Part shown: piece by piece, positions 23,864 to 37,363 of the stretch
Layout of the letters: each line of letters begins with the position of its first letter
Position numbering within the stretch: position 1 is the stretch's first letter
Source of the DNA: a virus
Virus record (IMG/VR): IMGVR_UViG_3300023174_000243
Coordinates: 1 to 49,336 of that record
Strand: one strand, 5' to 3'
DNA: 49,336 bases
Position numbers and translations under genes: made by a program
The notes under the pieces: generated by a model
Databases searched by the model: none
What the model was told of the DNA's origin: nothing
Seen by the model: the letters and a program-made list of their open reading frames with translations, nothing else

Positions 23864-24430
23864 TCAGCAAGGGACTATTCGCAAGTCACAGCCATGACCT
23901 TCCAGTTGGTTTCTATCGATGAACTCCTCTGCCTCTTTGCGCGAGGTGAATAGTCGAGTGCGAAGAGGTGGAGCGTCGATATCGATGCTGTCGGAGCTAT
24001 CTAAAACATTGAACCATCCAAGAGAGGGGCAGGTATCCGAAAGCATCTCGATCTTGTACGTTCGTTCAAGCGTCACCGGAGTAACTTCACGCAGAACCTT
24101 GAGGGTTGCTTTGGCAGACTTCTTCAATCCTTCCAAGCCTTCAGCATCGGGGCCGTAAGGATCGGTGTAGAACTCTGCATCACTCACTAAATCTCTCCAA
24201 CCATCGCAGTCGATAGCGGCAATGAAGTAGTGCTGTTTGGTTTCTCTCACGATGAATGGAGAGGGACATTCTCTCCCAATCATGTGATCGTAGAGAAATT
24301 TTTCTGGAACGCGAATAACAGGATATTCCGTAGTTGTTCGCTTGAGGACTTCCCCCTCTTTGATTTCGTTGGTGGCGATGAGATCGCCGTTAGTCGTTAG
24401 GACAATACAGACAGGTGGATTTTTTATCAT
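23864..24430 (-). CDS. Hypothetical cassette protein, 188 aa
   Basis: Starts MIKNPPVCIVLTTNGDL at 24430. A longer frame upstream reads through the promoter and is rejected. No family recognised; soluble and acidic, with Cys residues scattered. The sequence is clearly richer in G and C than the flanking regions, which hints at a different origin. It is a complete cassette with promoter, ATG 9 nt after the -10 box and terminator. Confidence 0.7.
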   Translation of the reverse strand: MIKNPPVCIVLTTNGDLIATNEIKEGEVLKRTTTEYPVIRVPEKFLYDHMIGRECPSPFIVRETKQHYFIAAIDCDGWRDLVSDAEFYTDPYGPDAEGLEGLKKSAKATLKVLREVTPVTLERTYKIEMLSDTCPSLGWFNVLDSSDSIDIDAPPLRTRLFTSRKEAEEFIDRNQLEGHGCDLRIVPC

Positions 24431-24439
24431 AGGACAAAT

Positions 24440-24468
24440 AGTATCGCATTTATTTCCGGTAAAGTCAA
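24440..24468 (-). promoter_or_regulatory. Cassette promoter P1
   Basis: TTGACT, spacer TTACCGGAAATAAATGC (17), GATACT; ATG 9 nt downstream. Confidence 0.85.
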
Positions 24469-24511
24469 TAACTTTTTTTCTAATTAGAAAGAAAGTTTTC
24501 TTCCTGCCTCT

Positions 24512-24556
24512 CATATTTGTAAGATTCATTATCCTTTTTAATATCTTACAATTATG
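24512..24556. repeat. Cassette palindrome, copy 2
   Basis: CATATTTGTAAGAT ... ATCTTACAATTATG between the terminator of the 99-aa gene and P1. Confidence 0.85.
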
Positions 24557-24578
24557 TAAGAAAGCAAGACCCTCGGAA

Positions 24579-24614
24579 TAAAAAAACCCCACACCCTTTT
24601 CAGAGTGTGGGGTT
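24579..24614 (-). terminator. Terminator of the 99-aa gene
   Basis: Stem AACCCCACAC/GTGTGGGGTT followed by T6 on the minus strand. Confidence 0.9.
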
Positions 24615-24631
24615 GGTTGAGGTTAGTTTGA

Positions 24632-24931
24632 TTACTCTTCCGCAATCTGCATTGCCGCTTCTTTTAGAATGCAGACAATTCCAGATAATGTGCAATAGTC
24701 ACCACACGCTTGAATCTTGTTTGAGATTTCGTATGGAACAACTGGCATGAAGTTGTCCCAAAAGTGAAGTGGGATATTGTTGAAGTGATTATCTATTCCA
24801 TCCTTGAGAGCAGAAAGCTTGAGAGTTGAGCGGAGTCTTTGCTTTGTTCCCTTTGTCACGAACTGCGAATAGTATTCGCGGTGGGTGCATTCGTTGTTTA
24901 GATATTGTTGACGAGTGAATGTGGTATTCAT
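24632..24931 (-). CDS. Hypothetical cassette protein, 99 aa
   Basis: Starts MNTTFTRQQYLNNECTHREY. The pattern of a QYLN, a HREYYSQFV and a later HFWDNFMP suggests a small helical protein that phages often carry as an early gene; no function is known. The ATG lies 9 nt after the -10 box of P2. Confidence 0.65.
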   Translation of the reverse strand: MNTTFTRQQYLNNECTHREYYSQFVTKGTKQRLRSTLKLSALKDGIDNHFNNIPLHFWDNFMPVVPYEISNKIQACGDYCTLSGIVCILKEAAMQIAEE

Positions 24932-24940
24932 GAGACAAAA

Positions 24941-24969
24941 AGTATCGCATTTATTTCTGGTAAAGTAAA
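24941..24969 (-). promoter_or_regulatory. Cassette promoter P2
   Basis: TTTACT, spacer TTACCAGAAATAAATGC (17), GATACT; then TTTTGTCTC and ATG. Confidence 0.85.
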
Positions 24970-25012
24970 GAAAAATATTTTGAATCTGAACAAAATATTT
25001 GAGCATGGCTCT

Positions 25013-25057
25013 CATATTTGTAAGATTCAATATCCTTTTTAATATCTTACAATTATG
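25013..25057. repeat. Cassette palindrome, copy 3
   Basis: CATATTTGTAAGAT ... ATCTTACAATTATG upstream of P2. Confidence 0.85.
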
Positions 25058-25078
25058 GAAGAAAGCAATACCATCGGA

Positions 25079-25118
25079 ATAAAAAAAATCCCACCACCCT
25101 TTCGAGTGATGGGATTTT
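25079..25118 (-). terminator. Terminator of the 179-aa gene
   Basis: Stem ATCCCACCAC/GTGATGGGAT (one G-U) with a long T run on the minus strand. Confidence 0.88.
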
Positions 25119-25144
25119 TGGGTTGTCCTCTTTTCGTTTTCTCT

Positions 25145-25684
25145 TTAGTGAATCTCGATCACTTCCCCACGGGTGACAATGCCACCGATATTTTCGGGGT
25201 TGATAATGAATGATCCGAAGCGGGTGCGTTTGAAGTCGCAAGCCTTTTCAATCGCTTTCTTTGCAAGCGTGAGAGGGCGGGAATTGACTGGTTTCTTTGG
25301 ATTGGTTGGAGGCTCCACTTGCTTCTTGCTTTGAACAAATCCGTAGATATAGATTTCCCCAGTTTCCCGGTGCTGACGGATGCCTTTTCCGATAGACTCA
25401 AAAGTATCTTTCTGAGTATAGGATGAAGAAACGCCTTCAGTTAGGGTTTCCGTAAGGGACTGAAGCATTTCCGCTTTTGCGGTCTCTTCCAAGGTATCCT
25501 TGGGAGTGTAGGATTCCAAAGCATCCTTGTCCGTTTTGCAAGCCTTGTGATAGTCGATCCCAAAGTTGATCTGATATTTGCTGGTTTCCCCAGTGCCTTT
25601 TGAGCGATAGAGGAATGTCATAAAAGAACATCCTTTTTGGGTTGCTTCTCGGAGGGAATCAATGGCTTTGATTTTTATATTCAT
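25145..25684 (-). CDS. Hypothetical cassette protein, 179 aa
   Basis: Soluble protein with a beta-rich start (CSFMTFLYRSKGTGETSKYQ) and a basic C-terminal half. No family recognised. Unlike most cassettes it has a leader of about 58 nt that begins with a hairpin shared with the DUF932 gene, so its translation or mRNA stability is probably controlled separately. Confidence 0.65.
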   Translation of the reverse strand: MNIKIKAIDSLREATQKGCSFMTFLYRSKGTGETSKYQINFGIDYHKACKTDKDALESYTPKDTLEETAKAEMLQSLTETLTEGVSSSYTQKDTFESIGKGIRQHRETGEIYIYGFVQSKKQVEPPTNPKKPVNSRPLTLAKKAIEKACDFKRTRFGSFIINPENIGGIVTRGEVIEIH

Positions 25685-25713
25685 AGTTGGCTATTTTTGA
25701 TTTTTGTTTTGAG

Positions 25714-25742
25714 TGTCGAACAAGAACCTTTCTTAATCGACA
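25714..25742 (-). promoter_or_regulatory. 5'-terminal mRNA hairpin of the 179-aa gene
   Basis: TGTCGA/TCGACA outer stem, one mismatch, TAAGAA/TTCTTG inner stem and AGG loop. It begins 7 nt after the -10 box, that is, at the expected transcription start. Confidence 0.75.
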
Positions 25743-25748
25743 AGTAAG

Positions 25749-25777
25749 AGTATCGCATTTATTTCTGGTAAAGTAAA
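25749..25777 (-). promoter_or_regulatory. Cassette promoter P3
   Basis: TTTACT, spacer TTACCAGAAATAAATGC (17), GATACT. Confidence 0.85.
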
Positions 25778-25810
25778 GAACTATTTTCAAAAATTTTTAG
25801 GGGGGTCTTC

Positions 25811-25855
25811 CATATTTGTAAGATTATCTGATTTATATTTTATCTTACAAAAATG
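25811..25855. repeat. Cassette palindrome, copy 4
   Basis: CATATTTGTAAGAT ... ATCTTACAAAAATG upstream of P3. Confidence 0.85.
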
Positions 25856-25877
25856 AACGCTGATGTCGGTCTCGGAA

Positions 25878-25917
25878 TAAAAAAAATCCCACCACCCTTT
25901 CGAGTGATGGGATTTTT
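25878..25917 (-). terminator. Terminator of the 81-aa gene
   Basis: Almost the same sequence as the terminator at 25079 (ATCCCACCAC/GTGATGGGAT), which shows that terminators are copied along with cassettes. Confidence 0.88.
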
Positions 25918-25931
25918 GGGTTAGTATTTAA

Positions 25932-26177
25932 TTATGCTGGTATGATGGACTCCAGCCCGGTGAACCCAAATGCGCGGTCGTATTGCACCGAACCCTTTTT
26001 CACGAACTTATTAAGATCGATTTTGAGAATATGAGTAAAGTATCCGCTCACAAACTGAATAGTTGCATAGCGACTCCCGGAGCGAGTTGTAATGGATTCT
26101 ATTGTTTCAAGATTCTCATAGCCCGGAGAGCCGTGTTTCACTTGTGTTCCAATGAGGTGTTTGAGTAGTAGTTTCAT
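25932..26177 (-). CDS. Hypothetical cassette protein, 81 aa
   Basis: Small beta-rich protein (MKLLLKHLIGTQVKHGSPGY; SRYATIQFVSGYFTHILKID). No family recognised. The ATG is 9 nt after the -10 box and no Shine-Dalgarno is possible in the 2-3 nt leader. Confidence 0.65.
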   Translation of the reverse strand: MKLLLKHLIGTQVKHGSPGYENLETIESITTRSGSRYATIQFVSGYFTHILKIDLNKFVKKGSVQYDRAFGFTGLESIIPA

Positions 26178-26186
26178 GAGGTAAAG

Positions 26187-26215
26187 AATATCTCAAAAAT
26201 TTCTGGTAAAGTAAA
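26187..26215 (-). promoter_or_regulatory. Cassette promoter P4
   Basis: TTTACT, spacer TTACCAGAAATTTTTGA (17), GATATT; ATG 9 nt downstream. Confidence 0.85.
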
Positions 26216-26258
26216 GAAAAATCTTTTGAATCTGAAAAAAATTTTCCCTCCAATCTTC

Positions 26259-26304
26259 CATAATTGTAAGATCAAATATCCTTTTCCATATCTTACAAAA
26301 ATGG
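26259..26304. repeat. Cassette palindrome, copy 5
   Basis: CATAATTGTAAGAT ... ATCTTACAAAAATG upstream of P4. Confidence 0.82.
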
Positions 26305-26324
26305 ATGCTGGTGTCAGCCTCGGA

Positions 26325-26363
26325 ATAAAAAAAATCCCGCCACCCTTTCGAGTGGCGGGATTT
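26325..26363 (-). terminator. Terminator of the gp88-like gene
   Basis: Stem ATCCCGCCAC/GTGGCGGGAT with T7 on the minus strand. Relative to the 25079 terminator, both strands changed together (A-T to G-C pairs). Confidence 0.9.
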
Positions 26364-26376
26364 CTCCTCATTTTCC

Positions 26377-27045
26377 CTATCTTATTACAAATCCTGAAGT
26401 GTCATGTTTACCCTTTCCTTTTGCTTTTAGTCCGACGATAATGCCGCGAGGGTCGAGAAAACGTAGGTCGGTTTCATCCCCATCAATCACACGCTTGCTC
26501 AAATAGGTGTCTGGAAGTTTATCAAATACGGCAGCAATGTTTCCCCCCATTGAGGCGATCAATTCGACCATTTTCTGATTATTTTCTTTCCGAGAAAATG
26601 TCAGATGATAGTTCGACGGCAATCCCCCACGTAAAAATTGAATCATGCGCTTAGGGTTTGGAGTATAGTCATAAAAATTGATAAGAGGAAAAGACTCCAT
26701 ATCAATCAAATTATGCCACGGAAGATCCGATAAGACATTCAAGCGCACCGCAATTTTTTGGCCTTTGGTTGCTCGTTTGTGTAGGTTAGTAAGCTCCTTT
26801 TCAAGTTGAGCGAGAAACTCGTTTCGATTTTCGATGAGGAACTTGCTCTTATTGATTCTTACTTCCTGAACATTGGAGAATACGCCCATGCCAGCGGTAT
26901 TGAGGCAGGAAAATTCACAGCCCGGTGAACGATGAGGGCAGAGTTGTTTTCCTGAGAGATTAGCGGGAGCGAGGGAAAGCCCGAGAGTTTTCCATGATTT
27001 TTTGATGCCTTTTTCAAGTTTGGTGTTAGTAGCTAGTAGTTTCAT
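26377..27045 (-). CDS. gp88-like phage protein (DUF7227 type)
   Basis: 222 aa. The N-terminal LGLSLAPANLSGKQLCPHRS, then PGCEFSCLNTAG (a Cys cluster), the central VRLNVLSDLPWHN and NFYDYTPNPKRM, and YHLTFSRKEN are the conserved blocks of a phage family often called gene product 88. The Cys cluster may bind metal. Function is unknown. It is expressed from its own early-type cassette. Confidence 0.8.
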   Translation of the reverse strand: MKLLATNTKLEKGIKKSWKTLGLSLAPANLSGKQLCPHRSPGCEFSCLNTAGMGVFSNVQEVRINKSKFLIENRNEFLAQLEKELTNLHKRATKGQKIAVRLNVLSDLPWHNLIDMESFPLINFYDYTPNPKRMIQFLRGGLPSNYHLTFSRKENNQKMVELIASMGGNIAAVFDKLPDTYLSKRVIDGDETDLRFLDPRGIIVGLKAKGKGKHDTSGFVIR

Positions 27046-27054
27046 GAGGGAAAA

Positions 27055-27083
27055 ACTATCTCATTTATTTCTGGTAAAGTAAA
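27055..27083 (-). promoter_or_regulatory. Cassette promoter P5
   Basis: TTTACT, spacer TTACCAGAAATAAATGA (17), GATAGT; then TTTTCCCTC and ATG. Confidence 0.85.
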
Positions 27084-27123
27084 GAAAAATCTTTTCAATC
27101 CGAAAAAAAATTTTTCATGCGCC

Positions 27124-27169
27124 CATATTTGTAAGATCAAATATATTTTTCCATATCTTACAATTATGG
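27124..27169. repeat. Cassette palindrome, copy 6
   Basis: CATATTTGTAAGAT ... ATCTTACAATTATGG; first of two copies in a row upstream of P5. Confidence 0.85.
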
Positions 27170-27194
27170 AAAAAAATTCTGCCATCAAACGGTT

Positions 27195-27240
27195 CAAATT
27201 TGTAAGATTAAATATTTTTTTTGGTATCTTACAAATATGA
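27195..27240. repeat. Cassette palindrome, copy 7
   Basis: AAATTTGTAAGATT ... TATCTTACAAATATGA, 26 nt from copy 6. Confidence 0.82.
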
Positions 27241-27248
27241 AAGGCATA

Positions 27249-27290
27249 ATAGGCAATTTTTGCCTATAGGTAAATTATGCCTATAGGCAA
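27249..27290. repeat. TTGCCTATAGG repeat element
   Basis: TAGGCAATTTTTGCCTATAGG, then a second inverted CCTATAGGCAAA. The first 21 nt recur at 34323-34343, also between a terminator and a palindrome. Confidence 0.75.
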
Positions 27291-27327
27291 AAAAATCCCC
27301 ATACTCCTCGATGAAGAGTATGGGGAT
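27288..27327 (-). terminator. Terminator of the 102-aa gene
   Basis: Stem ATCCCCATACTC/GAGTATGGGGAT with T7 on the minus strand. Confidence 0.9.
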
Positions 27328-27352
27328 AAAGGGACGAATTGTTTCTTATTAT

Positions 27353-27661
27353 TTAAAACTTGAAAATGGTTGTCTTATGTTCGGGGAATAGTTCTTGCAC
27401 TCCCAAAACGGCAGAATCATCAACCCCTCCAATGTGCCAGTTATATGGAGAAAGCGGTGTGGTTTTTGTTTTCCAATCATACAAGGTTGCAACATTTCCG
27501 TCTTCATTCTTCAATATCCACCCACAAGTTGTTTTATTATCCCCCGAAGGTCCACAGGTAGGTTCTCCCAAGATTTTAACAATAGTATCATAGGTAGCTT
27601 GAAGATACCCTTGAAGAGTTGTTCCGTTTACAAGATTTTTATTTGTAGTAATTGTCATCAT
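27353..27661 (-). CDS. Conserved hypothetical protein, 102 aa
   Basis: Starts MMTITTNKNLVNGTTLQGYL. The blocks LQGYLQATYDTIVKILGEP, CGWILKNEDGNVATLYDWK and NWHIGG are a conserved pattern I know from bacterial and phage proteins of unknown function. One domain, soluble. Two adjacent ATG codons are possible starts; the first is 9 nt from the -10 box. Confidence 0.7.
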   Translation of the reverse strand: MMTITTNKNLVNGTTLQGYLQATYDTIVKILGEPTCGPSGDNKTTCGWILKNEDGNVATLYDWKTKTTPLSPYNWHIGGVDDSAVLGVQELFPEHKTTIFKF

Positions 27662-27670
27662 AGAAATATG

Positions 27671-27699
27671 AATGTATTCGATATTACCGGTAAAGTCAA
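27671..27699 (-). promoter_or_regulatory. Cassette promoter P6
   Basis: TTGACT, spacer TTACCGGTAATATCGAA (17), TACATT; ATG 9 nt downstream. Confidence 0.82.
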
Positions 27700-27731
27700 G
27701 AAGTATTTTAAAATTTTTTTTAGTGTCATTG

Positions 27732-27773
27732 ATATTTGTAAGATTATTTGATTTATATTTTATCTTACAGAAT
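27732..27773. repeat. Cassette palindrome, copy 8
   Basis: ATATTTGTAAGATT ... TATCTTACAGAAT upstream of P6; the outer pairs are weaker than in other copies. Confidence 0.78.
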
Positions 27774-27793
27774 TGCAATGGGATATGGAACAT

Positions 27794-27862
27794 GATGCAG
27801 CATTACAACACCATGTTACATTACAACACCATGTTACACCATGTTACATTACAACACTATGC
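27794..27862. repeat. Short repeat array, CATTACAACACCATGTTA type
   Basis: Three to four imperfect copies of CATTACAACACCATGTTA. Related sequence recurs in the inverted repeat at 30476 and the direct repeats at 38030 and 38161. Confidence 0.75.
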
Positions 27863-27901
27863 AAAAATAAAAATCCCCACCCTCTTTTGGAGAGTGGGGA
27901 T
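27863..27901 (-). terminator. Terminator of the DUF932 gene
   Basis: Stem ATCCCCACCCTC/GAGAGTGGGGAT followed by a T-rich tract on the minus strand. Confidence 0.88.
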
Positions 27902-27924
27902 AGTGTTTGTTTTTTCCTTATGTC

Positions 27925-28971
27925 TTAATTGGCAAGAGACAAAGCCAGTGCTTCCTTACCCTTCTCGAAAACTTCCGAGCGATGGTTCTCGTTTGCGAGC
28001 ATTGCGATGAAGTTTGATTTGTGATCCGCCGCTCCACCGATTGCAGAACGATAGGAACGATCAGAGGCAGATGCTCCGCTTTGACCAGTTCCCTTACCGC
28101 TTGTCCAGTATTCAGTTACGGCATTCGCCAAGTCGTAAAGGCTTTGACCATGACATTCGATTCCGCGAGTAAAAAGAGTGGAAATCTCATTAACCGCATT
28201 CATGGAACGAGTGGAAAGTTCCTTTGTTCCAGTATTTTCCACAAAGTATCCTGCTGCCATTGCGATGGCATCATTGGAATCCACCTTGCAGGTTTCCAAG
28301 TATTCCATAACATCCTTCAGTTCTGCTCGACCCTTCATAATCGAATTGATAAGTTCGGGAAGGTTTGTCAAAGCCAGAGAAGCATTTTTAGTATGGGTGA
28401 CTCGAAAGTTCAAAGCCCCCTTGTTTTGATTGTTCATGCTCCAACGCAAGGTATTCATGCAGACGATTCGCATTGCAGAATCATAGACAACCATAGTGAT
28501 AGTTCCATCATGGGAGGTGACAAAGTTCAAAAAGAATTTGAATTTGTCTTTATTGATAATCATTTCCGAGTCTCCAATAGTGACCGAAATGAAAAACTTC
28601 TTTCCACCCTCCAGAGTTCCGACTGAAGTAATGGTAGCGTCCAAGTCTTTCAAGGACTCTTCCATGCACTTCCAAACTTCTGGATTGGAAATGACTTTAT
28701 ATCCGCTTTTAGGAATGTGAAGCGGATGAATATGTCCACCAAGTTCGGAGATTTCCGCTTCAGTGCGAAGACCTTCCAAGTTAGCGGCAAGAATCTTGTA
28801 GTTAGGAACTACGATATTGTTTGCCAAATAGACGGGAGATTCAATAATATCCCAGAGAATATCAGTAATTTCTTCCAGAAGGATTTTCTGTTTTGGAATA
28901 GCACAACGATGCCATTCAGTTCCTTCGTTTGAGTAGATGCGGTCGATGATAGGGACGATTCCAGATGCCAT
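27925..28971 (-). CDS. DUF932-family phage/plasmid protein
   Basis: 348 aa. The central SHDGTITMVVYDSAMRIVCM, NTLRWSMN and FRVTHTKNAS blocks match the DUF932 family found in phages and plasmids, where function is still unknown. The C-terminal part has SLYDLANAVTEYWTSGKG. Its leader of about 61 nt starts with the conserved hairpin at 29004-29032, which it shares only with the 179-aa gene. Confidence 0.85.
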   Translation of the reverse strand: MASGIVPIIDRIYSNEGTEWHRCAIPKQKILLEEITDILWDIIESPVYLANNIVVPNYKILAANLEGLRTEAEISELGGHIHPLHIPKSGYKVISNPEVWKCMEESLKDLDATITSVGTLEGGKKFFISVTIGDSEMIINKDKFKFFLNFVTSHDGTITMVVYDSAMRIVCMNTLRWSMNNQNKGALNFRVTHTKNASLALTNLPELINSIMKGRAELKDVMEYLETCKVDSNDAIAMAAGYFVENTGTKELSTRSMNAVNEISTLFTRGIECHGQSLYDLANAVTEYWTSGKGTGQSGASASDRSYRSAIGGAADHKSNFIAMLANENHRSEVFEKGKEALALSLAN

Positions 28972-29003
28972 AGTATTTTGTAGTTTGTATTTTGTGGTTT
29001 AGT

Positions 29004-29032
29004 TGTCGAGTGAGAACCTTTCCCAATCGACA
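29004..29032 (-). promoter_or_regulatory. 5'-terminal mRNA hairpin of the DUF932 gene
   Basis: TGTCGA/TCGACA outer stem, one mismatch, TGGGAA/TTCTCA inner stem, AGG loop; it starts 7 nt after the -10 box. The inner stem differs from the copy at 25714 but still pairs. Confidence 0.78.
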
Positions 29033-29038
29033 TGAAAG

Positions 29039-29067
29039 ATACTACATTTTATTTCTGGTAAAGTCGA
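29039..29067 (-). promoter_or_regulatory. Cassette promoter P7
   Basis: TCGACT, spacer TTACCAGAAATAAAATG (17), TAGTAT. Confidence 0.82.
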
Positions 29068-29125
29068 GAATTATTTTTCAGATTTGAAATATTTTTTTTG
29101 GGAGAACACCGAGTCCGAGAAGTCC

Positions 29126-29170
29126 CATATTTGTAAGATTATTTAAATTATTTGATATCTTACAAATATG
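29126..29170. repeat. Cassette palindrome, copy 9
   Basis: CATATTTGTAAGAT ... ATCTTACAAATATG upstream of P7; perfect outer arms. Confidence 0.87.
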
Positions 29171-29194
29171 AAGGATGAGCAAGGTTCAAAGACA

Positions 29195-29229
29195 CAAAAA
29201 AACCCGACCTTTTCAGATCGGGTTTTTCT
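29195..29229. terminator. Bidirectional terminator
   Basis: Stem AACCCGACCT/AGATCGGGTT with A7 before and T5 after on the + strand. It serves the 114-aa gene on the minus strand. Confidence 0.82.
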
Positions 29230-29262
29230 TTTTGTTATTAGCGCATTGTTCCTCCTATTCTA

Positions 29263-29607
29263 TTATTTGTAAGTTATTCCAAGTTGGGGGCAGAGTTGTT
29301 TGGTTAATTCTTCGGTTGTTTCTGGAACGAATTGTTGCATTGCTTTTAGAGTCGTTCCCTTTGACCATTTCGCTCTCTTCAATTCTTCTCCATATTCTCC
29401 AGAATTAAATTCGATTGTTGGTTCCCCTTTTTTGTTTGTTGTTAGATTTGTCGTGATATGTATTCCTCCGTCTCCGTATGGAACTTCAAAAATCTTTGCT
29501 TTAATAGGATCGGCTTCTGTATCCAATTTCCAGAATAGATCTGTTTTGTCTTCTGCATCTACTATTGTGATAGTGCCATCTGGCCATTGTGCAATATATG
29601 TTTTCAT
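29263..29607 (-). CDS. Hypothetical cassette protein, 114 aa
   Basis: Starts MKTYIAQWPDGTITIVDAED, a beta-strand followed by a helix with LFWKLDTEADPIKAKIFEV. This looks like a small conserved phage protein, but no function is known. It follows the 45-aa gene after 17 nt and shares its promoter P8. Confidence 0.65.
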   Translation of the reverse strand: MKTYIAQWPDGTITIVDAEDKTDLFWKLDTEADPIKAKIFEVPYGDGGIHITTNLTTNKKGEPTIEFNSGEYGEELKRAKWSKGTTLKAMQQFVPETTEELTKQLCPQLGITYK

Positions 29608-29624
29608 TTTTATTATATTAAAAA

Positions 29625-29762
29625 TTATTTAGAAAGATAGTCGAATATCCGCCCTTGGCGAAAGATTTGACCAATATGATTCTCATTGTTGAATGCCCAA
29701 ATGCTCAAAGCGAGGTTGGATGGTTGGGGTTTTTTGAATAGGAGTTGAAGTAGTTTTTTCAT
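29625..29762 (-). CDS. Small basic protein, 45 aa
   Basis: MKKLLQLLFKKPQPSNLALS ... FDYLSK. It starts 9 nt after the -10 box of P8. The longer upstream frame would read through the promoter. No family recognised. Confidence 0.55.
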   Translation of the reverse strand: MKKLLQLLFKKPQPSNLALSIWAFNNENHIGQIFRQGRIFDYLSK

Positions 29763-29771
29763 CGGACAACC

Positions 29772-29800
29772 AGCATCGCATTTATTTCTGGTAAAGTCCA
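29772..29800 (-). promoter_or_regulatory. Cassette promoter P8
   Basis: TGGACT, spacer TTACCAGAAATAAATGC (17), GATGCT; ATG 9 nt downstream. Confidence 0.8.
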
Positions 29801-29832
29801 GAACTATTTTCAAAAATCTTTAGGAGGTCTTT

Positions 29833-29876
29833 GATTTTTGTAAGATCCAATATTTTTTTTGGTATCTTACAAATAT
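29833..29876. repeat. Cassette palindrome, copy 10
   Basis: ATTTTTGTAAGATC ... GTATCTTACAAATAT upstream of P8. Confidence 0.82.
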
Positions 29877-29900
29877 GAATGGCACTCGAAACAATTTATC

Positions 29901-29946
29901 CATATTTGTAAGATCGAATATTTTTTTTGATATCTTACAAATATGG
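29901..29946. repeat. Cassette palindrome, copy 11
   Basis: CATATTTGTAAGATC ... GATATCTTACAAATATGG; tandem with copy 10. Confidence 0.85.
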
Positions 29947-29991
29947 ATGGTAAGTTTCACTGAAAAATGAAAATTCAAAATAAAATGAAAT

Positions 29992-30024
29992 AAAAAAAAG
30001 AGTATGGAAAAAATCCAAACTCTT
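29992..30024 (-). terminator. Rho-independent terminator
   Basis: Stem AAGAGTATGGA/TCCAAACTCTT (10 of 11 pairs) and T8 on the minus strand. No gene ends close by; the nearest upstream stop is at 30534. Confidence 0.72.
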
Positions 30025-30027
30025 CTC

Positions 30028-30475
30028 GGATATGAATACTTTTTTTGTGAGAGTATTCTGTTAGTTATTAAAAATCAAATAATTTTAAACTTTGGGATTG
30101 TTATATTTTTTTTCTTTTATGTTAAAATTTTAAATATTTTACACAAATATTACAAATATTCTCGATTCTTTTATTTTCTTTTTAAATCATAGTGTTTTAA
30201 TTTCTTTTATATTTTTATATATTAATAATATTTCCAAATCTTTTTTTTCTTTTATATTATATATTCTTAATCTTTTATAATATTTTTATTTTTTATATAT
30301 TATATATTATTAATATTCTATAACATTTATTTTTCTTTTATATTATAGTTTCTTAATATTATTAATATTAGTAGAAAAGATTTTCTGGAATATTCCCAGA
30401 AATAATTATCTTTGACATTTTTATTGTCAATAGAAAAAAAGAAAGGTTTTTAAAAAAGTTTTGTTTTTTTAAAGA
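30028..30475. other. Extremely AT-rich non-coding block
   Basis: Apart from the first 80 nt it is nearly all A and T, with repeated TCTTTTATATTATA-like motifs and TATTAATATT runs. Near 30385-30405 lies an imperfect palindrome TTCTGG-AATATT-CCCAGAA, and near 30415 TTGACA...TGTCAA. An open frame at 30004-30192 is low-complexity and not accepted as a gene. It could be an unwinding element, but nothing proves that. Confidence 0.55.
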
Positions 30476-30518
30476 GTAATGCAACATAGTGTTGTATTCT
30501 AACACTATGTTGCATTAC
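30476..30518. repeat. Perfect 18-bp inverted repeat
   Basis: Arms GTAATGCAACATAGTGTT and AACACTATGTTGCATTAC with a 7-nt loop, 15 nt after the stop of the 56-aa gene. No T run follows on the minus strand, so it may act as an RNA 3' structure or protein site. Confidence 0.88.
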
Positions 30519-30533
30519 AGCACTATGTAAAAA

Positions 30534-30704: not shown

Positions 30705-30705
30705 A

Positions 30706-30870: not shown

Positions 30871-31046
30871 ACCAGTTGAATAATTCGATATACTTCTCCG
30901 TTTTCGTCTTTCTTGAAATGTTTTCCAAGTTCGACATCTTCTCCTTCAATGTCATAGTCGTTAATGATGATTTGTGTATCATCATTCTCTCTTACAACAT
31001 CTTGAATGGTTCCTCCTTTAACAACAATCGTGATTCGTTTTTTCAT
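30867..31046 (-). CDS. Small hypothetical protein, 59 aa
   Basis: Begins MKKRITIVVKGGTIQDVVRE, a pattern of beta strand, glycine turn and acidic segment (NDYDIEGEDVELGKHF). An in-frame ATG at 31088 would lie only 5 nt from the -10 box of P9 and is less likely. Similar short proteins occur in phages and archaea without known function. Confidence 0.62.
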   Translation of the reverse strand: MKKRITIVVKGGTIQDVVRENDDTQIIINDYDIEGEDVELGKHFKKDENGEVYRIIQLV

Positions 31047-31093
31047 GTGATTTGTTACGCAACTATGAATGAAGAATGGTTTCTTCATAGTGC

Positions 31094-31122
31094 AATGTAT
31101 GCAAATTTTCTGGTAAAGTCAA
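31094..31122 (-). promoter_or_regulatory. Cassette promoter P9
   Basis: TTGACT, spacer TTACCAGAAAATTTGCA (17), TACATT. It overlaps the 3' end of the 64-aa gene. Confidence 0.8.
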
Positions 31123-31313
31123 GAAAAATTTTCATCAATACTGGTGTTTTGAAAGCTTCGACAAACACGGGCAAGTTCTTGAACAAAGTCATCCATAGTT
31201 CGTTTCATAGGAATATAGTTTCCTTCTTCTGTCATAACCATATTGCTATTAACAACAATGGCAAGTTTTCGTTCCAAGGTTCCGATATATTTGTTATCAG
31301 TTAGTATTTTCAT
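31119..31313 (-). CDS. Hypothetical protein, 64 aa
   Basis: MKILTDNKYIGTLERKLAIV..., small and mixed alpha/beta. Its stop codon lies within the -35 region of P9. It follows the 113-aa gene after 3 nt, so it shares its transcript. No family recognised. Confidence 0.6.
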   Translation of the reverse strand: MKILTDNKYIGTLERKLAIVVNSNMVMTEEGNYIPMKRTMDDFVQELARVCRSFQNTSIDENFS

Positions 31314-31316
31314 ATA

Positions 31317-31658
31317 TTATTCAAAATCTTCTCCAGTGTAACCATTGGGGAGTTCTTCATTGTTCTCATCCCAAACAACTTTTGCTTCGGAAATAAGCTC
31401 CAGACAATCATCGGTTCCATCGGCGTCGGATTTCTCCAGAAGGTCGATAAGTTCTTTAAGCTTCTTTCCAATAGATGGAGTGGGAATAGAATCCTCCACA
31501 TCCCATACTTTGCATTCCAGTTCGTCAAACTTCTTTGCAAAGTATTCCACGCTTTCAGATTCTCCTCCACTACAATCCTCTGCGAGGGTGATTGATTTGC
31601 TCGCCAGTTCCATAGCTTCTGAAAGAAGCTCCTTTAGGGTTTCTGTTGTATTATTCAT
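31317..31658 (-). CDS. Acidic helical protein, 113 aa
   Basis: Strongly acidic and helical; the Ser/Glu/Asp-rich composition and Leu spacing resemble small DNA-mimic or coiled-coil proteins, but no family is recognised. It lies 58 nt after the -10 position of P10. The leader contains a stop-terminated remnant frame. Confidence 0.6.
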   Translation of the reverse strand: MNNTTETLKELLSEAMELASKSITLAEDCSGGESESVEYFAKKFDELECKVWDVEDSIPTPSIGKKLKELIDLLEKSDADGTDDCLELISEAKVVWDENNEELPNGYTGEDFE

Positions 31659-31716
31659 AATAAATTAGTAATCAATTTCGACATAGATGAGTTTGCCTTC
31701 TCGGGCAAGGTTTTTA

Positions 31717-31745
31717 TATTTCTCTTTAATTTCTGGTAAAGTCAA
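31717..31745 (-). promoter_or_regulatory. Cassette promoter P10 (weak -10)
   Basis: TTGACT and spacer TTACCAGAAATTAAAGA are conserved but the -10 position reads GAAATA. The leader frame PEIKEKYKNLAREGKLIYVE ends at a TAA 16 nt before the next ATG and may be the tail of a lost gene. Confidence 0.6.
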
Positions 31746-31753
31746 GAATTATT

Positions 31754-32209
31754 TTAAAGATTTGCTTCAAGGTATCGAAGAAACTCTTTTCCTTCCTTTG
31801 GTGATCGAACCCATGCCCGATCATATAAAACATTTTGATTCCCTTTATCTGCTCGTCTTCCTTCCAAGTCATGTTCCAGATAATATACAGAACCATCTTC
31901 TTTCACCTCATGGGCTATGTGGTAAGAAACCATATCCTTGAAATCTTCTGATCCAAACTCTTTCTTGTCGATGATGACTGCTGAATATGCTTTCGTTCCA
32001 CAGAGAGAACGAATGTTGTATTCAATCACATACTCATTGAAATTAGCATAGTATCTATTTTCCAGATGAGTTGCGAAATCGTGCATATCGGTTTCGTCCA
32101 TCCAAGACTCTAAAAGGTCTGGAAGTTCGGTTACATCGAATCTTTTTGCAATTCGATTGAATTTTTCTACAACTTTAGGGTTGTGTCCTTTGTCTCCGTA
32201 AAATTTCAT
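31754..32209 (-). CDS. Hypothetical cassette protein, 151 aa
   Basis: Soluble, mixed alpha/beta, acidic; no recognised domain. The first residues MKFYGDKGHNPKVVEKFNRI are followed by helices, and beta strands (YSAVIIDKKEF, SVYYLEHDLEG) lie near residues 80-115. It has a leader of about 46 nt after P11 without a clear Shine-Dalgarno. Confidence 0.62.
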   Translation of the reverse strand: MKFYGDKGHNPKVVEKFNRIAKRFDVTELPDLLESWMDETDMHDFATHLENRYYANFNEYVIEYNIRSLCGTKAYSAVIIDKKEFGSEDFKDMVSYHIAHEVKEDGSVYYLEHDLEGRRADKGNQNVLYDRAWVRSPKEGKEFLRYLEANL

Positions 32210-32255
32210 TTGATTTATTATGGTTGATGTTTAGTGGTGATTTGATTGAGGAAAC

Positions 32256-32284
32256 ATTCTTTCAGAAATTTCTGGTAAAGTCCA
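32256..32284 (-). promoter_or_regulatory. Cassette promoter P11
   Basis: TGGACT, spacer TTACCAGAAATTTCTGA (17), AAGAAT. Confidence 0.7.
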
Positions 32285-32311
32285 GAATTATTTTTCGGAA
32301 AGTGAAACTTT

Positions 32312-32929
32312 TTATTTTCCGTATTGATTTGCAATAGCTTTTGCAATTCCCAAATAGGTCTTGCTTCTGATTCTGCTACGATCTGGGGATGGTGCAGTCT
32401 TGTCGTGACCATAGTTTGAGCATTGATTCGACCAACGCTCCACAACTTTTCCAGAAGGAGTCGTAACCATTCTTCCAACTACTCGACAAGTTTCAATCAA
32501 AACAGGAAGACCCTTCAGCCACAGGCAGGTGCTTTTGCTGGCATCTTCTCCGAATTGATATGGTTGAATGATTTGGTCGGGCTTGCGATAAATCTTGGAC
32601 ATAATTCCAATTGGATTTTCAATCAATACTTTGGGAACATGATCAAGTTTGGTGAACTCCAGAAAGAAATCAATACCTTGCTGTTGCCTACCATCTGCTC
32701 GTTTAGCCGCAAAATGTGCCGCTCCACTTACTGCCAGATGGGTGCAAGGAGGGAATGCCAGAACCATATCCCAATCCTTTTTCAATTCATTTAAAACATC
32801 TCCTTGAATGTGCCATTCAGGATGACCCCCACTACAATCCAAAATATCACAGGAATATGCTTCATGCCCCAAAGCACGGAACTCTTTAGTGACAACTTGA
32901 CTTTCTTCACAGGCGACAAGAATTTTCAT
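32312..32929 (-). CDS. DNA cytosine-methyltransferase-like protein
   Basis: 205 aa. MKILVACEESQVVTKEF with GHEAYSCDILDC is the SAM-binding start, LAFPPCTHLAVSGA holds the Pro-Cys motif with Cys62, and VLIENPIGIMSKIYRKPDQI and CLWLKGLPVL follow. This is a common compact phage protein related to C5 cytosine methyltransferases. It is shorter than true enzymes, so activity is not certain. It starts 1 nt after the glycosylase stop and shares its transcript. Confidence 0.8.
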   Translation of the reverse strand: MKILVACEESQVVTKEFRALGHEAYSCDILDCSGGHPEWHIQGDVLNELKKDWDMVLAFPPCTHLAVSGAAHFAAKRADGRQQQGIDFFLEFTKLDHVPKVLIENPIGIMSKIYRKPDQIIQPYQFGEDASKSTCLWLKGLPVLIETCRVVGRMVTTPSGKVVERWSNQCSNYGHDKTAPSPDRSRIRSKTYLGIAKAIANQYGK

Positions 32930-32930
32930 A

Positions 32931-33506
32931 TTAGTTGTTTGCGTATTGTTTCCAAATGGTTAAGTCTAAATCTGCTACTGACATTTTTTGATCTTCTGCA
33001 ATTTGCAGAAATTGTTGTTCGATAATACCATATCGGTGTTTTGGTGGTGTTGCTTTTGGAACATCATATCCTTGAGCATACATATACTTGAGAATGTGAG
33101 TATCCAATACTGCTATTTTCTGATTGGGTCGGGAATGAAGAACAAAGAATCGCGCAGTCTTTGATCCAATCCCACGAACAGATTCCAATTCCTTCACAGA
33201 AACATTCTTGAGATTCCCCTTGAACTTGAGAATACCAATGAAAGCAAAGGTAAGTCTTTTATATTGTCCAATCTTATGCTTCATCATAAGAGACGAAAGC
33301 ATATTCCCACGAATTAGATATTCAAGAAACTCCAAGGGAGTCGTATCTTCTGGAAGTCCAAGAGTATTCTTTGCTGAAAGAAACTCTTCTAATTTCTTTG
33401 CCTGTTGCTTTGCCGTCTTTCCTGCTACGAGGATGGCAAACATTAGGAACTCTTCCAGTTCTGATTCGGTGCGATTGTAGTTTGTGATTTGATTTGGATT
33501 TATCAT
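32931..33506 (-). CDS. HhH-GPD DNA glycosylase-like protein
   Basis: 191 aa. ESVRGIGSKTARFFVLHSR is the helix-hairpin-helix with Lys116, and IAVLDTHILKYM carries the catalytic Asp135. Lys plus Asp in this arrangement fits bifunctional glycosylase/lyases of the endonuclease III / OGG type. The iron-sulfur Cys cluster of Nth is absent. Together with the methyltransferase-like gene next to it, it suggests base modification or repair. Confidence 0.78.
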   Translation of the reverse strand: MINPNQITNYNRTESELEEFLMFAILVAGKTAKQQAKKLEEFLSAKNTLGLPEDTTPLEFLEYLIRGNMLSSLMMKHKIGQYKRLTFAFIGILKFKGNLKNVSVKELESVRGIGSKTARFFVLHSRPNQKIAVLDTHILKYMYAQGYDVPKATPPKHRYGIIEQQFLQIAEDQKMSVADLDLTIWKQYANN

Positions 33507-33515
33507 GGAAGGAAA

Positions 33516-33544
33516 ACTCTATACAGAATTTCTGGTAAAGTCAA
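33516..33544 (-). promoter_or_regulatory. Cassette promoter P12
   Basis: TTGACT, spacer TTACCAGAAATTCTGTA (17), TAGAGT; then TTTCCTTCC and ATG. Confidence 0.85.
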
Positions 33545-33552
33545 GAATTATT

Positions 33553-33681
33553 TTAAAGATTGTAAGAAACAATCGCAAGCATCGCAAGGAATATAATATT
33601 TCCAAATGCTACTATCATCCAGAAATATCGTAAAGCCTTCTTACTCTCTTTTTTACGAATTCGAATTTCTTGAAGAGTCAT
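33553..33681 (-). CDS. Small membrane protein, 42 aa
   Basis: MTLQEIRIRKKESKKALRYF followed by one hydrophobic helix (IVAFGNIIFLAMLAIVSY). The ATG overlaps the TGA of the LysM gene. It probably accompanies that protein in the membrane. Confidence 0.65.
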   Translation of the reverse strand: MTLQEIRIRKKESKKALRYFWMIVAFGNIIFLAMLAIVSYNL

Positions 33682-34184
33682 GGGATAATGAGTTTTTTTC
33701 CATCAACAATGACATTGATGTCTTTGATCTTGTTGATCTCTTGGAACTTTTTGACATCCTTTATTTTATATTGTTTTACAATGCCATAAAAGGTGTCGGT
33801 GGATTTAACGACATAATGTTTCGGTCGTGGCCAATCCTTAGTTGTATCGTCAACTCCTACATATTCTGGAATTGGCTTAGTGAGGAAATCTTTATCATTT
33901 TCCTTCTTTCGTTTGGTTTCGCTTGAAGAGAATGCCAAACCTGCTACTGCTAACAGGTGGACTCCCACTACTATTAATACTGCTGTTTTCATAGATATTG
34001 ATTTAAGATTTTTTTTAGGTTCTTCGTCTTCTATTTCCTCCATCTCTGACAATACTTGAAATGCCTTCATAGCATTACAGAGACTTTCCATTTGCTCACT
34101 CAAAGATTTATCTGCTTTGTAATAAACAATCGGGTTGGATGATGGAGGAAGTCCATTGCTGATTCTTATCATGTCAGATTCCAT
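33678..34184 (-). CDS. LysM-domain membrane protein, 168 aa
   Basis: The cytoplasmic N-terminal 65 residues precede a membrane helix (about 67-88, TAVLIVVGVHLLAVAGLAF). After a linker, a C-terminal LysM domain (KHYVVKSTDTFYGIVKQYKI ... VDGKKLIIP) follows. LysM binds peptidoglycan, so the protein is likely anchored in the inner membrane with the domain in the periplasm. The ATG at 34184 is 8 nt from the -10 box. Confidence 0.8.
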   Translation of the reverse strand: MESDMIRISNGLPPSSNPIVYYKADKSLSEQMESLCNAMKAFQVLSEMEEIEDEEPKKNLKSISMKTAVLIVVGVHLLAVAGLAFSSSETKRKKENDKDFLTKPIPEYVGVDDTTKDWPRPKHYVVKSTDTFYGIVKQYKIKDVKKFQEINKIKDINVIVDGKKLIIP

Positions 34185-34192
34185 CACTATCA

Positions 34193-34221
34193 ACTCTATT
34201 CTTTATTTCTGGTAAAGTCGA
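34193..34221 (-). promoter_or_regulatory. Cassette promoter P13
   Basis: TCGACT, spacer TTACCAGAAATAAAGAA (17), TAGAGT; ATG 8 nt downstream. Confidence 0.83.
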
Positions 34222-34265
34222 GAAGTTTTTTACAGAAGTTTCCAGACCGAGAAATTCGCCCTCTT

Positions 34266-34310
34266 AAAATTGTAAGATCATTTAATTTTTTCTATATCTT
34301 ACAATTTTGG
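34266..34310. repeat. Cassette palindrome, copy 12
   Basis: AAAATTGTAAGATC ... ATATCTTACAATTTTGG upstream of P13. Both outer arms changed to AAAATTG/CAATTTT, keeping the pairing. Confidence 0.85.
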
Positions 34311-34358
34311 GATACAAGAAGGTAGGCAATTTTTGCCTATAGGAAAATAATTCCAAAC

Positions 34359-34394
34359 GAAAAAACCCACACTCCTTTCAGAGTGTGGGTTTTC
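34359..34394. terminator. Terminator of the rIIB-like gene
   Basis: Stem AACCCACACTC/GAGTGTGGGTT with a T run on the minus strand and a shorter one on the plus strand. Confidence 0.88.
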
Positions 34395-34440
34395 CCCATG
34401 ACGGAGAATCCTCCCAGATTCCCCTTATCCACCACCACTA

Positions 34441-35298
34441 CTAAACCTTCTTCACAAACTTTCCATTCGATCCACGGACATTGTAAAACCGATCACCATT
34501 TGGCTTGACCCCAAACTCTCCCCCATCGGAGGAATAGAGGGGGAAGTCGAAACCATTGTCTCCCTGTTCGATCTTGGAACGCCAGTCCTCCTTGTATTCT
34601 GCTACAACTTCATAGCGAGCGCAACGACCTTTGGTGTTGTTGTAATCCTTTGGAATAGAAACAACATCAGCAGGATTGATCTTAACGATCATGGTATGAC
34701 CATTACAATCGGCAAAGTGTGGAAGGTATGCAATAGAACAGAAGTGCAGACCAGATGAACAAGTGAGTTCCCGATCATCACAGACTTTGTTTCGAGGCAT
34801 GGAGCAAACATCCCCAATCTGATTGCGGAATGTTCCAGAGTGAATGTCCATGTAATTCTCCCGAACATTCTTGTATGCGAGGAAATGACCATCTTCAGTA
34901 ATGGGAAGCTCTCCCACTTCCAAAAAGTCATAGAGTTCATCAATGGCAGACTTGGAAGGATTCTGCATGATGTTTTGCAGGAATGCAATCAATGGCTCAA
35001 AGGGAAGTCCCTCTTCCATGAAGGAGACGATTCGGGTCGCCAGAGTATTGTGGACAACTTCTCCTTGATAGAAGACCTGTCCATCGTCAATGGAGACTTC
35101 CCCAGAGTTCTGGACATATTGTTTAACCTTGCTGGAAATATCAACAAGGTCGATGAAGACATCCCACTCTTTCGACTTGATAGACTCAATAATGAGTGAG
35201 TAGTTTGGGTGATCGGAAGTAACCGAATAAGGTTTGCCGTCAATGACTGCAACGACTTTTCCGCTTCCTGTGATGGTGACTGCTGTAGTAGTGTTCAT
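34441..35298 (-). CDS. rIIB: rIIB-like protein
   Basis: 285 aa from the ATG at 35298. The conserved core HFLAYKNVRENYMDIHSGTF, then NKVCDDRELTCSSGLHFCS, KINPADVVSIPKDYNNTKGR and the end GVKPNGDRFYNVRGSNGKF are those of phage rIIB proteins. In T4, rIIA and rIIB protect against exclusion by a prophage and act at the membrane. It is downstream of rIIA but has its own promoter P14 and an ATG 9 nt after the -10 box. Confidence 0.88.
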   Translation of the reverse strand: MNTTTAVTITGSGKVVAVIDGKPYSVTSDHPNYSLIIESIKSKEWDVFIDLVDISSKVKQYVQNSGEVSIDDGQVFYQGEVVHNTLATRIVSFMEEGLPFEPLIAFLQNIMQNPSKSAIDELYDFLEVGELPITEDGHFLAYKNVRENYMDIHSGTFRNQIGDVCSMPRNKVCDDRELTCSSGLHFCSIAYLPHFADCNGHTMIVKINPADVVSIPKDYNNTKGRCARYEVVAEYKEDWRSKIEQGDNGFDFPLYSSDGGEFGVKPNGDRFYNVRGSNGKFVKKV

Positions 35299-35307
35299 AA
35301 GAGCTAT

Positions 35308-35336
35308 AATGTATAATTTATTTCTGGTAAAGTCGA
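35308..35336 (-). promoter_or_regulatory. Cassette promoter P14
   Basis: TCGACT, spacer TTACCAGAAATAAATTA (17), TACATT; then ATAGCTCTT and ATG. Confidence 0.84.
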
Positions 35337-35345
35337 GAACTATTT

Positions 35346-37325
35346 TCAAATTTCTTTTGCAAGGATCATAACCTCATCGAGAGAAAGATTGGAGTATCTT
35401 TCGTTCAACAATTTAAGAATAATCTGATTCTTCTTTTCTTTAGCTTGAACATAGGATTCTCTGTTATAGGAAACGAATCGCTTCATGCTTTGATTGGCAG
35501 GGCAATTCATTTTATTCTGAATTGCCGCAATCTTCTTAATTGTTTTGACCAGATCGGATTCTTGATCGAGTTTGGAAAATTCTGTATGCTCGGAAAACTC
35601 CGCAATTTGACAAGACCAATGAGAATCCGTAGAAACATCCTCCGGGGTGATTCTGATTTTAACATTAGCCTTTGCATAATCTTCCAATGATTGAGAGAAT
35701 GGGGCAATCTTCTTAACATTCTGAGAAGCAACCATTACAACATCATCAAAAGAAATCTTCAAGACGGAGCAAAGAGATTTCAAATCGCTTTTATCTTGGA
35801 ATGCAATCAGATCGGGAAGTTTGATATTGAAGTTCCAACTATCATTATTCTTTACCACATAGAATTTCGGAGGATTAGAAGGATCAAAGGGTTTTCCATC
35901 CCAAGAGGTTCTGTATGATTGTCCTTGTTGATAGACATTGAATCCTGCCACTACTTTATTCTTTCCACGAACAGAAGGCATTTGAATCTTAACAGGTTTT
36001 GCAAGTTCAGAAGTCTTTGAGAACAAAGAGGAATCGAATGTCATATTCGAGTCTGTATTGTTCACCAAAGCATCATAAGCCTCTTTAGAGAAGAGAGTAA
36101 TAACATCATCCATGTTTTCTTTCAAATGGTTTTTAAGCCGAACCATACATCCCTTCTCCAGATCATTCACATACCACTTGGAATCAAGGGCAATGGTAGC
36201 AGATTGACGATACTTGGAACGACCAAACTTTGCGTAGGAATGTGTAAGAACTTCCCCTCCCTTGGAAATGGTATGAATCACATGGGAAGGATTGGAAATA
36301 TCAATTCCCTTCCATTTCATATTATCAAAGGCGGGAAGGTTCAGATGAGAAAACTTTTTACGAATACTATAACCCGCTTTCAGAGCTTCCAAAAGATTCT
36401 TTGAATTGGAAATGTTTTCAGAAAACTTTTCCCCGAAGTCTTTTATGATAAATTCTACTTTCTTATTAAGGGCATCAATAGTGGAATGATCGTAGGAAAG
36501 TGCTTCACGCGAAGGAGCAACATCAAGTTCTCCAATTTCAAAATACATGACAATTCCTGCTTTGGCAATGAATGATTGATTCTTATGATCAATCTTATAG
36601 TGATCAATGGGATAGGAAACCCCTCCCATGATTGCAAAGGATTGACCATATTCCAAACCATTATATGATTCCCAACCAGTTCCAGAGAAGAGTAGATCAT
36701 GCTTATTCCAATCAATTTGACCCCCAGTAATAGTGGGCTTAATAGAATAGAAACGGAATGCTTTCTTGATAGCTTGCAAAAAATTTCCAATATCATTCTT
36801 ATTCACAGGAATTTGAATGGCAACTCCATTGTCTTGATCAGTGTTTTCAGCCGATAGAAGAGAGATGGCAGGAGTTTGATTGGAATTGAAGAAGGCATTG
36901 TAAATGCGTTTGACTCCATTGTGAACGGAAGTAACCAAAAAATTATCCGTATAGCAAAAGGGGCTTTTGCTTCCAAGTCCAAGGCATCCAACGAAATCAT
37001 TGGATTCAGACTTTGTAGATTCAAAGTATGTGGCATAGACATTGTAAATATCCTCATGGGAAATGCCAGTTCCTTTGTCTTCGATAATGATCCAAGGTTC
37101 GACGATATTAGGGACTTTAACATGGAAGGGTTGATTCCCCTTTCCAGCAGCAGTCATCGCATCACGAGCATTTGCTCCAAGTTCCCGAACGATTGCAAGA
37201 GGCTTGTCACTATACAAATCAGAAAGAATCTGGAATGCTTTTCGGGATGCTTTCATCCGAAATTGGGATTCCTCAGAGATGTTTCCGATTTGTTCGATGG
37301 TATGTGTAGTGGATTGAATTTTCAT
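35346..37325 (-). CDS. rIIA: rIIA-like GHKL ATPase
   Basis: 659 aa from the ATG at 37325. The GHKL ATP-binding motifs are clear: VRELGANARDAM near 47, EDKGTGIS near 82 and GLGSKSPF near 110. GEL-DVAPSREALSY near 240 is also typical of rIIA. The C-terminal 350 residues are specific to the family. Reading further upstream would cross the promoter, so the short start is used. rIIA acts with rIIB. Confidence 0.9.
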   Translation of the reverse strand: MKIQSTTHTIEQIGNISEESQFRMKASRKAFQILSDLYSDKPLAIVRELGANARDAMTAAGKGNQPFHVKVPNIVEPWIIIEDKGTGISHEDIYNVYATYFESTKSESNDFVGCLGLGSKSPFCYTDNFLVTSVHNGVKRIYNAFFNSNQTPAISLLSAENTDQDNGVAIQIPVNKNDIGNFLQAIKKAFRFYSIKPTITGGQIDWNKHDLLFSGTGWESYNGLEYGQSFAIMGGVSYPIDHYKIDHKNQSFIAKAGIVMYFEIGELDVAPSREALSYDHSTIDALNKKVEFIIKDFGEKFSENISNSKNLLEALKAGYSIRKKFSHLNLPAFDNMKWKGIDISNPSHVIHTISKGGEVLTHSYAKFGRSKYRQSATIALDSKWYVNDLEKGCMVRLKNHLKENMDDVITLFSKEAYDALVNNTDSNMTFDSSLFSKTSELAKPVKIQMPSVRGKNKVVAGFNVYQQGQSYRTSWDGKPFDPSNPPKFYVVKNNDSWNFNIKLPDLIAFQDKSDLKSLCSVLKISFDDVVMVASQNVKKIAPFSQSLEDYAKANVKIRITPEDVSTDSHWSCQIAEFSEHTEFSKLDQESDLVKTIKKIAAIQNKMNCPANQSMKRFVSYNRESYVQAKEKKNQIILKLLNERYSNLSLDEVMILAKEI

Positions 37326-37334
37326 TGGACACCC

Positions 37335-37363
37335 ACCATACGATTTATTTCTGGTAAAGTCGA
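37335..37363 (-). promoter_or_regulatory. Cassette promoter P15
   Basis: TCGACT, spacer TTACCAGAAATAAATCG (17), TATGGT; then GGGTGTCCA and ATG. Confidence 0.82.

Follow-up and report, generated by a model that had tools for sequence, protein, structure and literature searches.

The record IMGVR_UViG_3300023174_000243, from an uncultured T4-related phage, is considered here over its whole length of 49,336 nucleotides (nt; the window), with a focus on promoters that lie immediately ahead of start codons. The window has a GC content of 33%, and its genes include rIIA, rIIB and those for an RNA ligase and for a PhoH-like protein that contains a homing-endonuclease domain. Judged by rIIA and rIIB, the phage is a member of the T4 superfamily with no close isolate; identity to isolate phages does not exceed about 47% over rIIB and stays below 40% over the RNA ligase. 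The main relative is an uncultured 203-kb record (G002; rIIA identity 56%), and about 30 further uncultured contigs of the clade were recovered via the RNA ligase. Gene calls are mechanical, and the clade genomes are fragmentary. The geometry of these promoters makes it highly probable that leaderless or near-leaderless mRNAs (leader of 0–3 nt), devoid of Shine-Dalgarno (SD) sequences and transcribed from promoters set on the ATG, are used throughout the clade.

Fifteen promoters of almost the same sequence lie in the rII region from 24465 to 37360, every one of them on the minus strand. Each consists of an A-rich UP tract, a TTGACT-like −35 element, the near-invariant ACTTTACCAGAA, a 17-bp spacer and a −10 box of the form nAnnnT. 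All copies carry ACTTTACC[A/G]G[A/T]A inside the promoter, and the spacer is exactly 17 bp in each; the second base of the −10 box is A in 15/15 and the sixth is T in 14/15. The number of nucleotides between the −10 box and the ATG, termed the gap below, is 9 in nine copies and 8 in one (34184). These are the ten starts for which a first-pass annotation had proposed this spacing, and all ten have it, as part of a larger family whose other five copies the annotation had not listed. The family members in the window are as follows.

24440–24468, minus strand: family promoter, −35 to −10; ATG 24430, gap 9 (G002 ortholog gap 9)
24941–24969, minus strand: family promoter; ATG 24931, gap 9
26187–26215, minus strand: family promoter; ATG 26177, gap 9
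27055–27083, minus strand: family promoter; ATG 27045, gap 9 (G002 ortholog gap 9)
27671–27699, minus strand: family promoter; ATG 27661, gap 9
29772–29800, minus strand: family promoter; ATG 29762, gap 9 (G002 ortholog gap 10)
33516–33544, minus strand: family promoter; ATG 33506, gap 9
34193–34221, minus strand: family promoter; ATG 34184, gap 8 (G002 ortholog gap 8)
35308–35336, minus strand: rIIB family promoter; ATG 35298, gap 9 (G002 ortholog gap 10)
37335–37363, minus strand: rIIA family promoter; ATG 37325, gap 9 (G002 rIIA gap 9)
31094–31122, minus strand: family promoter; probable ATG 31088, gap 5 (alternative 31044)
25749–25777, minus strand: leadered family promoter; ATG 25684, hairpin near the 5′ end
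29039–29067, minus strand: leadered family promoter; ATG 28971, hairpin near the 5′ end
31717–31745, minus strand: leadered family promoter; ATG 31658
32256–32284, minus strand: leadered family promoter; ATG 32209

For the copy at 31119, the ATG at 31088 is the likely start and is preferred over 31044 because homology to G002 extends upstream of the latter. Four copies (25774, 29064, 31742 and 32281) have their ATG 46–67 nt past the −10 box, and a diverged copy at 46706 on the minus strand heads a tRNA cluster (46851–46360), with a near-identical counterpart in G002 (L026:15294). Conservation of the family promoter thus does not require an ATG; roughly two thirds of the copies have one set directly on them. 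Past the −35 element, the invariant ACCAGAA block suggests an additional contact by the polymerase or a phage factor.

Outside this family, the first-pass annotation had pointed to the same geometry at four more genes, and it is indeed present there. In each case, TTGAC[A/T] is followed by 17 bp and then the −10 box.

1242–1270, plus strand: generic sigma70 promoter; ATG 1277, gap 6 (G002 gap 7)
10276–10304, minus strand: generic sigma70 promoter of the RNA ligase gene; ATG 10268, gap 7
20502–20530, plus strand: generic sigma70 promoter; ATG 20537, gap 6 (G002 ortholog gap 6)
22526–22554, plus strand: generic sigma70 promoter; ATG 22564, gap 9 (read by eye)

The spacing was counted by scanning upstream of each mechanically called start with a plain sigma70 model that had not been trained on the family; the −10 box alone, without a −35 element, gave a signal too weak for use. 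In the window, this generic scan finds only four starts with a strong promoter at gap 6–9, where 0.4 are expected. In G002 there are 27 among 231 starts, against 1.0 expected from dinucleotide shuffles and 1.3 from scaled internal ATGs, and in 26 more clade contigs 48 among 445, against 1.2. The clade rate is therefore 10.6–11.7% of starts, and the excess at all longer gaps combined is smaller than that at 6–9. The same scan finds no such start in T4 (74 kb) or RB49 (50 kb) and 9.1% of starts in the Thermus phage phiYS40 (50 kb); it thus detects a known positive and rejects the negatives.

The spacing is also kept where the surrounding sequence is not. Among 25 distinct RNA ligase upstream sequences from the clade, 20 have the promoter at gap 6–9, three at 10–15 and two lack a clear promoter, with a median identity of 36% over the 36 bases concerned. 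Six starts are near-leaderless in both the window and G002 (rIIA, rIIB, 27045, 29762, 34184 and 24430), and two are leadered in both (25684 and 28971). Scans of the viral collection with family patterns returned mostly chance matches, new real members being confined to the contigs L085, L098 and L117, where eight of ten family promoters have their ATG 9–10 nt past the −10 box. In 20 other clade contigs, the family signature TTACCAGAAAT gave stray single matches only; the special family is therefore narrower than the leaderless habit.

The spacing is conserved and is not due to chance. A constant distance could still be the by-product of copying a single cassette (terminator, inverted repeat and promoter), with no meaning for translation, and the upstream parts of the cassettes at 24465, 24966, 26212 and 27080 do show a clear relationship (68–82% identity). 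Yet between family copies the stretch from the −10 box to the ATG has diverged to 38% identity, near background, with its length fixed, compared with 95% in the promoter core. In addition, unrelated generic promoters of the clade share the geometry, and the family serves leadered genes and tRNAs too. Because the spacing is maintained across diverged RNA ligase upstream regions, family copies, G002 orthologs and the three additional contigs, copying is a highly improbable explanation.

The start codons themselves could be wrong, translation actually beginning at an ATG further downstream, behind a leader of normal length. Such errors are conceivable with mechanical gene calls, and at 34184 another in-frame ATG lies 12 nt downstream. 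Against this, G002 orthologs align with the window proteins from residue 1, in almost every clade contig the RNA ligase alignment begins at the first methionine, and internal ATGs have no SD upstream either, which leaves misassignment with a next to negligible probability.

As the first-pass annotation had proposed, SD sequences are missing at these starts. SD cores occur at 6–10% of starts in the window, G002 and the 26 contigs and at 7–12% of internal ATGs, so that, taken together, the clade gives no sign of SD use; the corresponding values at starts are 53% in T4, 59% in RB49 and 33% in phiYS40. A phage-encoded helper for leaderless translation was considered in the form of an initiator tRNA and rejected: the first base of the window's tRNA-Met (46441) is paired, whereas that of an initiator is not. 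A search for a phage initiation factor 3 found none, and a scan against Rfam returned tRNAs only.

The position at which transcription begins can be narrowed down from base composition. In 18 family promoters, the positions −1, −2, −3 and −4 before the ATG are pyrimidines in 15, 18, 17 and 16 cases, respectively. Start-site choice by sigma70 polymerase normally prefers a purine. At gap 9, the A of the ATG would thus be the first well-placed purine, since the four bases before it are mostly pyrimidines; at gap 6, it is the seventh base past the −10 box, the usual +1. The generic clade promoters at gap 6–9 show the same bias to a modest degree (69% versus 55% at −1 and 59% versus 40% at −2).

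Several observations weigh against leaders of zero length or against their general use. The transcription starts are predictions from sequence. At gaps 8–9, generic promoters often have purines at nucleotides 7–8 past the −10 box, where a start would yield a leader of 1–3 nt. In the clearest hairpin-leader copies of the family, the stem begins at nucleotides 7–8, which would put the transcription start 2–3 nt ahead of the ATG position if it were common to all copies. Only 10 or 11 of the 15 family copies are near-leaderless, four being leadered, two of these with a strong hairpin at the start of the leader, and read-through from upstream may occur where no terminator intervenes.

The first of two further alternatives draws on some of these points. 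It holds that leaders are very short (1–5 nt) and that transcription starts 7–8 nt past the −10 box wherever the ATG lies, as the apparent start of the hairpin leaders and the range of ortholog gaps from 6 to 9 would allow. In the family, however, nucleotides 7–9 are almost always pyrimidines with the ATG at nucleotide 10, a poor match to the normal preference for a purine, and generic promoters are likewise enriched in pyrimidines at −1 and −2. This alternative is possible but doubtful. Because the hairpin-leader stems fit a start 7–8 nt past the −10 box, the leader is given as 0–3 nt, which is the safe statement; zero is likely.

In the second alternative, transcripts read through from promoters further upstream and carry long leaders, and the ATG-adjacent promoter is minor or active at another time. 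Terminators precede most cassettes from 24 to 30 kb, and strong ones lie directly upstream of several (24614, 25119, 27327 and 27901), while the cassettes at 33506 and 35298 have no clear terminator ahead of them and would admit such transcripts. Longer leaders would still have no SD, and the clade-wide peak in gap length would go unexplained. Read-through as the main source of these mRNAs is very unlikely.

Leaderless or near-leaderless initiation is thus the preferred reading, and its mechanism can be outlined as follows. The host sigma70 polymerase, or a form of it modified by the phage, would start at the ATG or up to about 3 nt ahead of it, and ribosomes would load directly on the 5′-terminal AUG. 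Two sets of promoters would serve this purpose: generic TTGACA/TATAAT promoters across the clade, with the ATG 6–9 nt past the −10 box, and the rII-region family, with the ATG mostly 8–10 nt past it, where a run of pyrimidines makes the A of the ATG the natural start. The same family also drives a few genes with longer leaders, some of which begin with a hairpin. Operon-internal and leadered genes would need another route that is free of SD sequences; the observed leaders are rich in A and largely unpaired.

The leadered members deserve separate mention. The copies at 25774 and 29064 in the window and those at 12637, 14909 and 15810 in contig L027 have differing hairpins near the same 5′ position, and the hairpins of leadered members are followed by an A-rich unpaired stretch; they possibly stabilise the mRNA. 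Taken further, the clade may be wholly free of SD sequences, with one promoter family supporting two 5′ designs, namely a leaderless one with a pyrimidine run and one that starts 2 nt earlier with a hairpin and A-rich leader, a purine or pyrimidine at nucleotide 8 acting as the switch. This scheme is put forward tentatively, with rather less than even confidence.

The proposal in the first-pass annotation that leaderless translation is a genome-wide strategy is supported, with qualifications. All independent tests that could be applied favour leaderless or near-leaderless mRNAs as an arrangement of the whole clade; 'genome-wide', with four of 15 family copies leadered, nevertheless amounts to about 11% of mechanically called starts, and the majority of genes lack a nearby promoter of their own. 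Early timing of the rII-region promoters is inferred from the rII neighbourhood and from their likeness to T4-type early promoters.

Bacteria and some phages are well known to make leaderless mRNAs, for which a −10 box roughly 10 bp ahead of the start codon is the accepted signature (PMC3160421). The T4 rII and early genes, in turn, are textbook examples of SD-dependent genes. T4 and RB49 differ from this clade in having no start with a strong promoter at gap 6–9 and an SD at most starts. For phiYS40, most middle and late mRNAs have been reported to be leaderless (PMC3594737). Like the clade, it is a tailed double-stranded DNA phage with promoters directly ahead of the ATG at a similar rate; it differs in having SD sequences at about a third of starts, in not being T4-type and in its leaderless class being middle and late (PMC3594737), whereas the present clade has no detectable SD and includes rII-region genes. 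Among bacteria, TA-led leaderless genes are marked by TANNNT about 10–12 bp ahead of the start codon (Zheng et al. 2011, PMC3160421). The clade shares these marks, with a −10 box at 6–9 nt beyond chance and no SD at the start; that survey covered cellular genomes, in most groups of which leaderless genes are a minority.

The portion of PMC1524935 drawn on here describes T4-type early promoters (T4, RB49, RB69 and 44RR) as having an A-rich UP tract, a sigma70-like −35 element, A at −11 and T at −7; in several T4-type phages C is preferred just before the start, and such promoters also precede early and tRNA genes. The family shares the UP A-tract, the sigma70 −35 element, A at −11, T at −7 and a pyrimidine ahead of the start, and the same portion makes no mention of an ACCAGAA spacer block. 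Unlike T4-type early promoters with their TGn-extended −10 box (PMC2988021), most copies have no TGn directly ahead of the −10 box. T4 middle promoters have a MotA box, TGCTTtA, 12 ± 1 bp ahead of the −10 box in place of the −35 element (PMC2988021). A MotA-type assignment was rejected for the family: ACTTTA ends 14 bp ahead of the −10 box, a −35 element is present, and G002 copies read TTGC[A/T][A/T]TTACC. Searches for MotA and AsiA genes gave no matches, but the control genomes were also silent and the records may be incomplete.

What is new is the group, a T4-superfamily clade, together with its apparent lack of SD sequences, the fact that rIIA and rIIB are among the genes concerned, and the use of one family for both near-leaderless and hairpin-leader mRNAs. 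If correct, this would show that a large phage can base much of its expression on 5′-AUG initiation, and the host would probably be one with ribosomes that initiate in this manner. A host assignment was rejected: comparison of the RNA ligase with a single genome from each bacterial species found only a relative of 37% identity, in a Cytophagales bin, and isolate phages are distant. The geometry also provides a working rule for the annotation of start codons and promoters in this uncultured group, and control of leaderless translation becomes testable during infection.

The rII region harbours further repeated elements. Thirteen copies of the inverted repeat TTGTAAGAT-N17-ATCTTACAA are found at 23667–37504 (e.g. 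24517–24551 and 37470–37504); the spacer is invariably 17, and the arms often reach CATATTTGTAAGAT. The repeat usually sits between terminator and family promoter, its centre mostly 58–59 or 69 bp ahead of the ACTTTACC block; the two positions are about one helical turn apart, though the cassettes are partly duplicated. It is absent from G002 and looks like an operator or another DNA-level site. Arbiol et al. (2010) reportedly described mobile regulatory cassettes of T4-type phages, stem-loop plus promoter modules between early genes; the module here differs in adding the inverted repeat and in ending at the ATG.

Short tandem repeats of the ACACCATGTTACATTACA type lie beside a terminator at 27790–27860, with similar motifs near 30490–30530 and 38040–38200. 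The stretches 30060–30480 and 37500–38500 are strongly AT-rich with little coding, and the latter also contains repeats around CCCCTAGAGGGAAA and CCCCTAGGGGAAA. In the middle of the PhoH-like protein (40704–42581, minus strand) lies a LAGLIDADG homing-endonuclease domain, probably an intein; only the C-terminal part is matched in G002.

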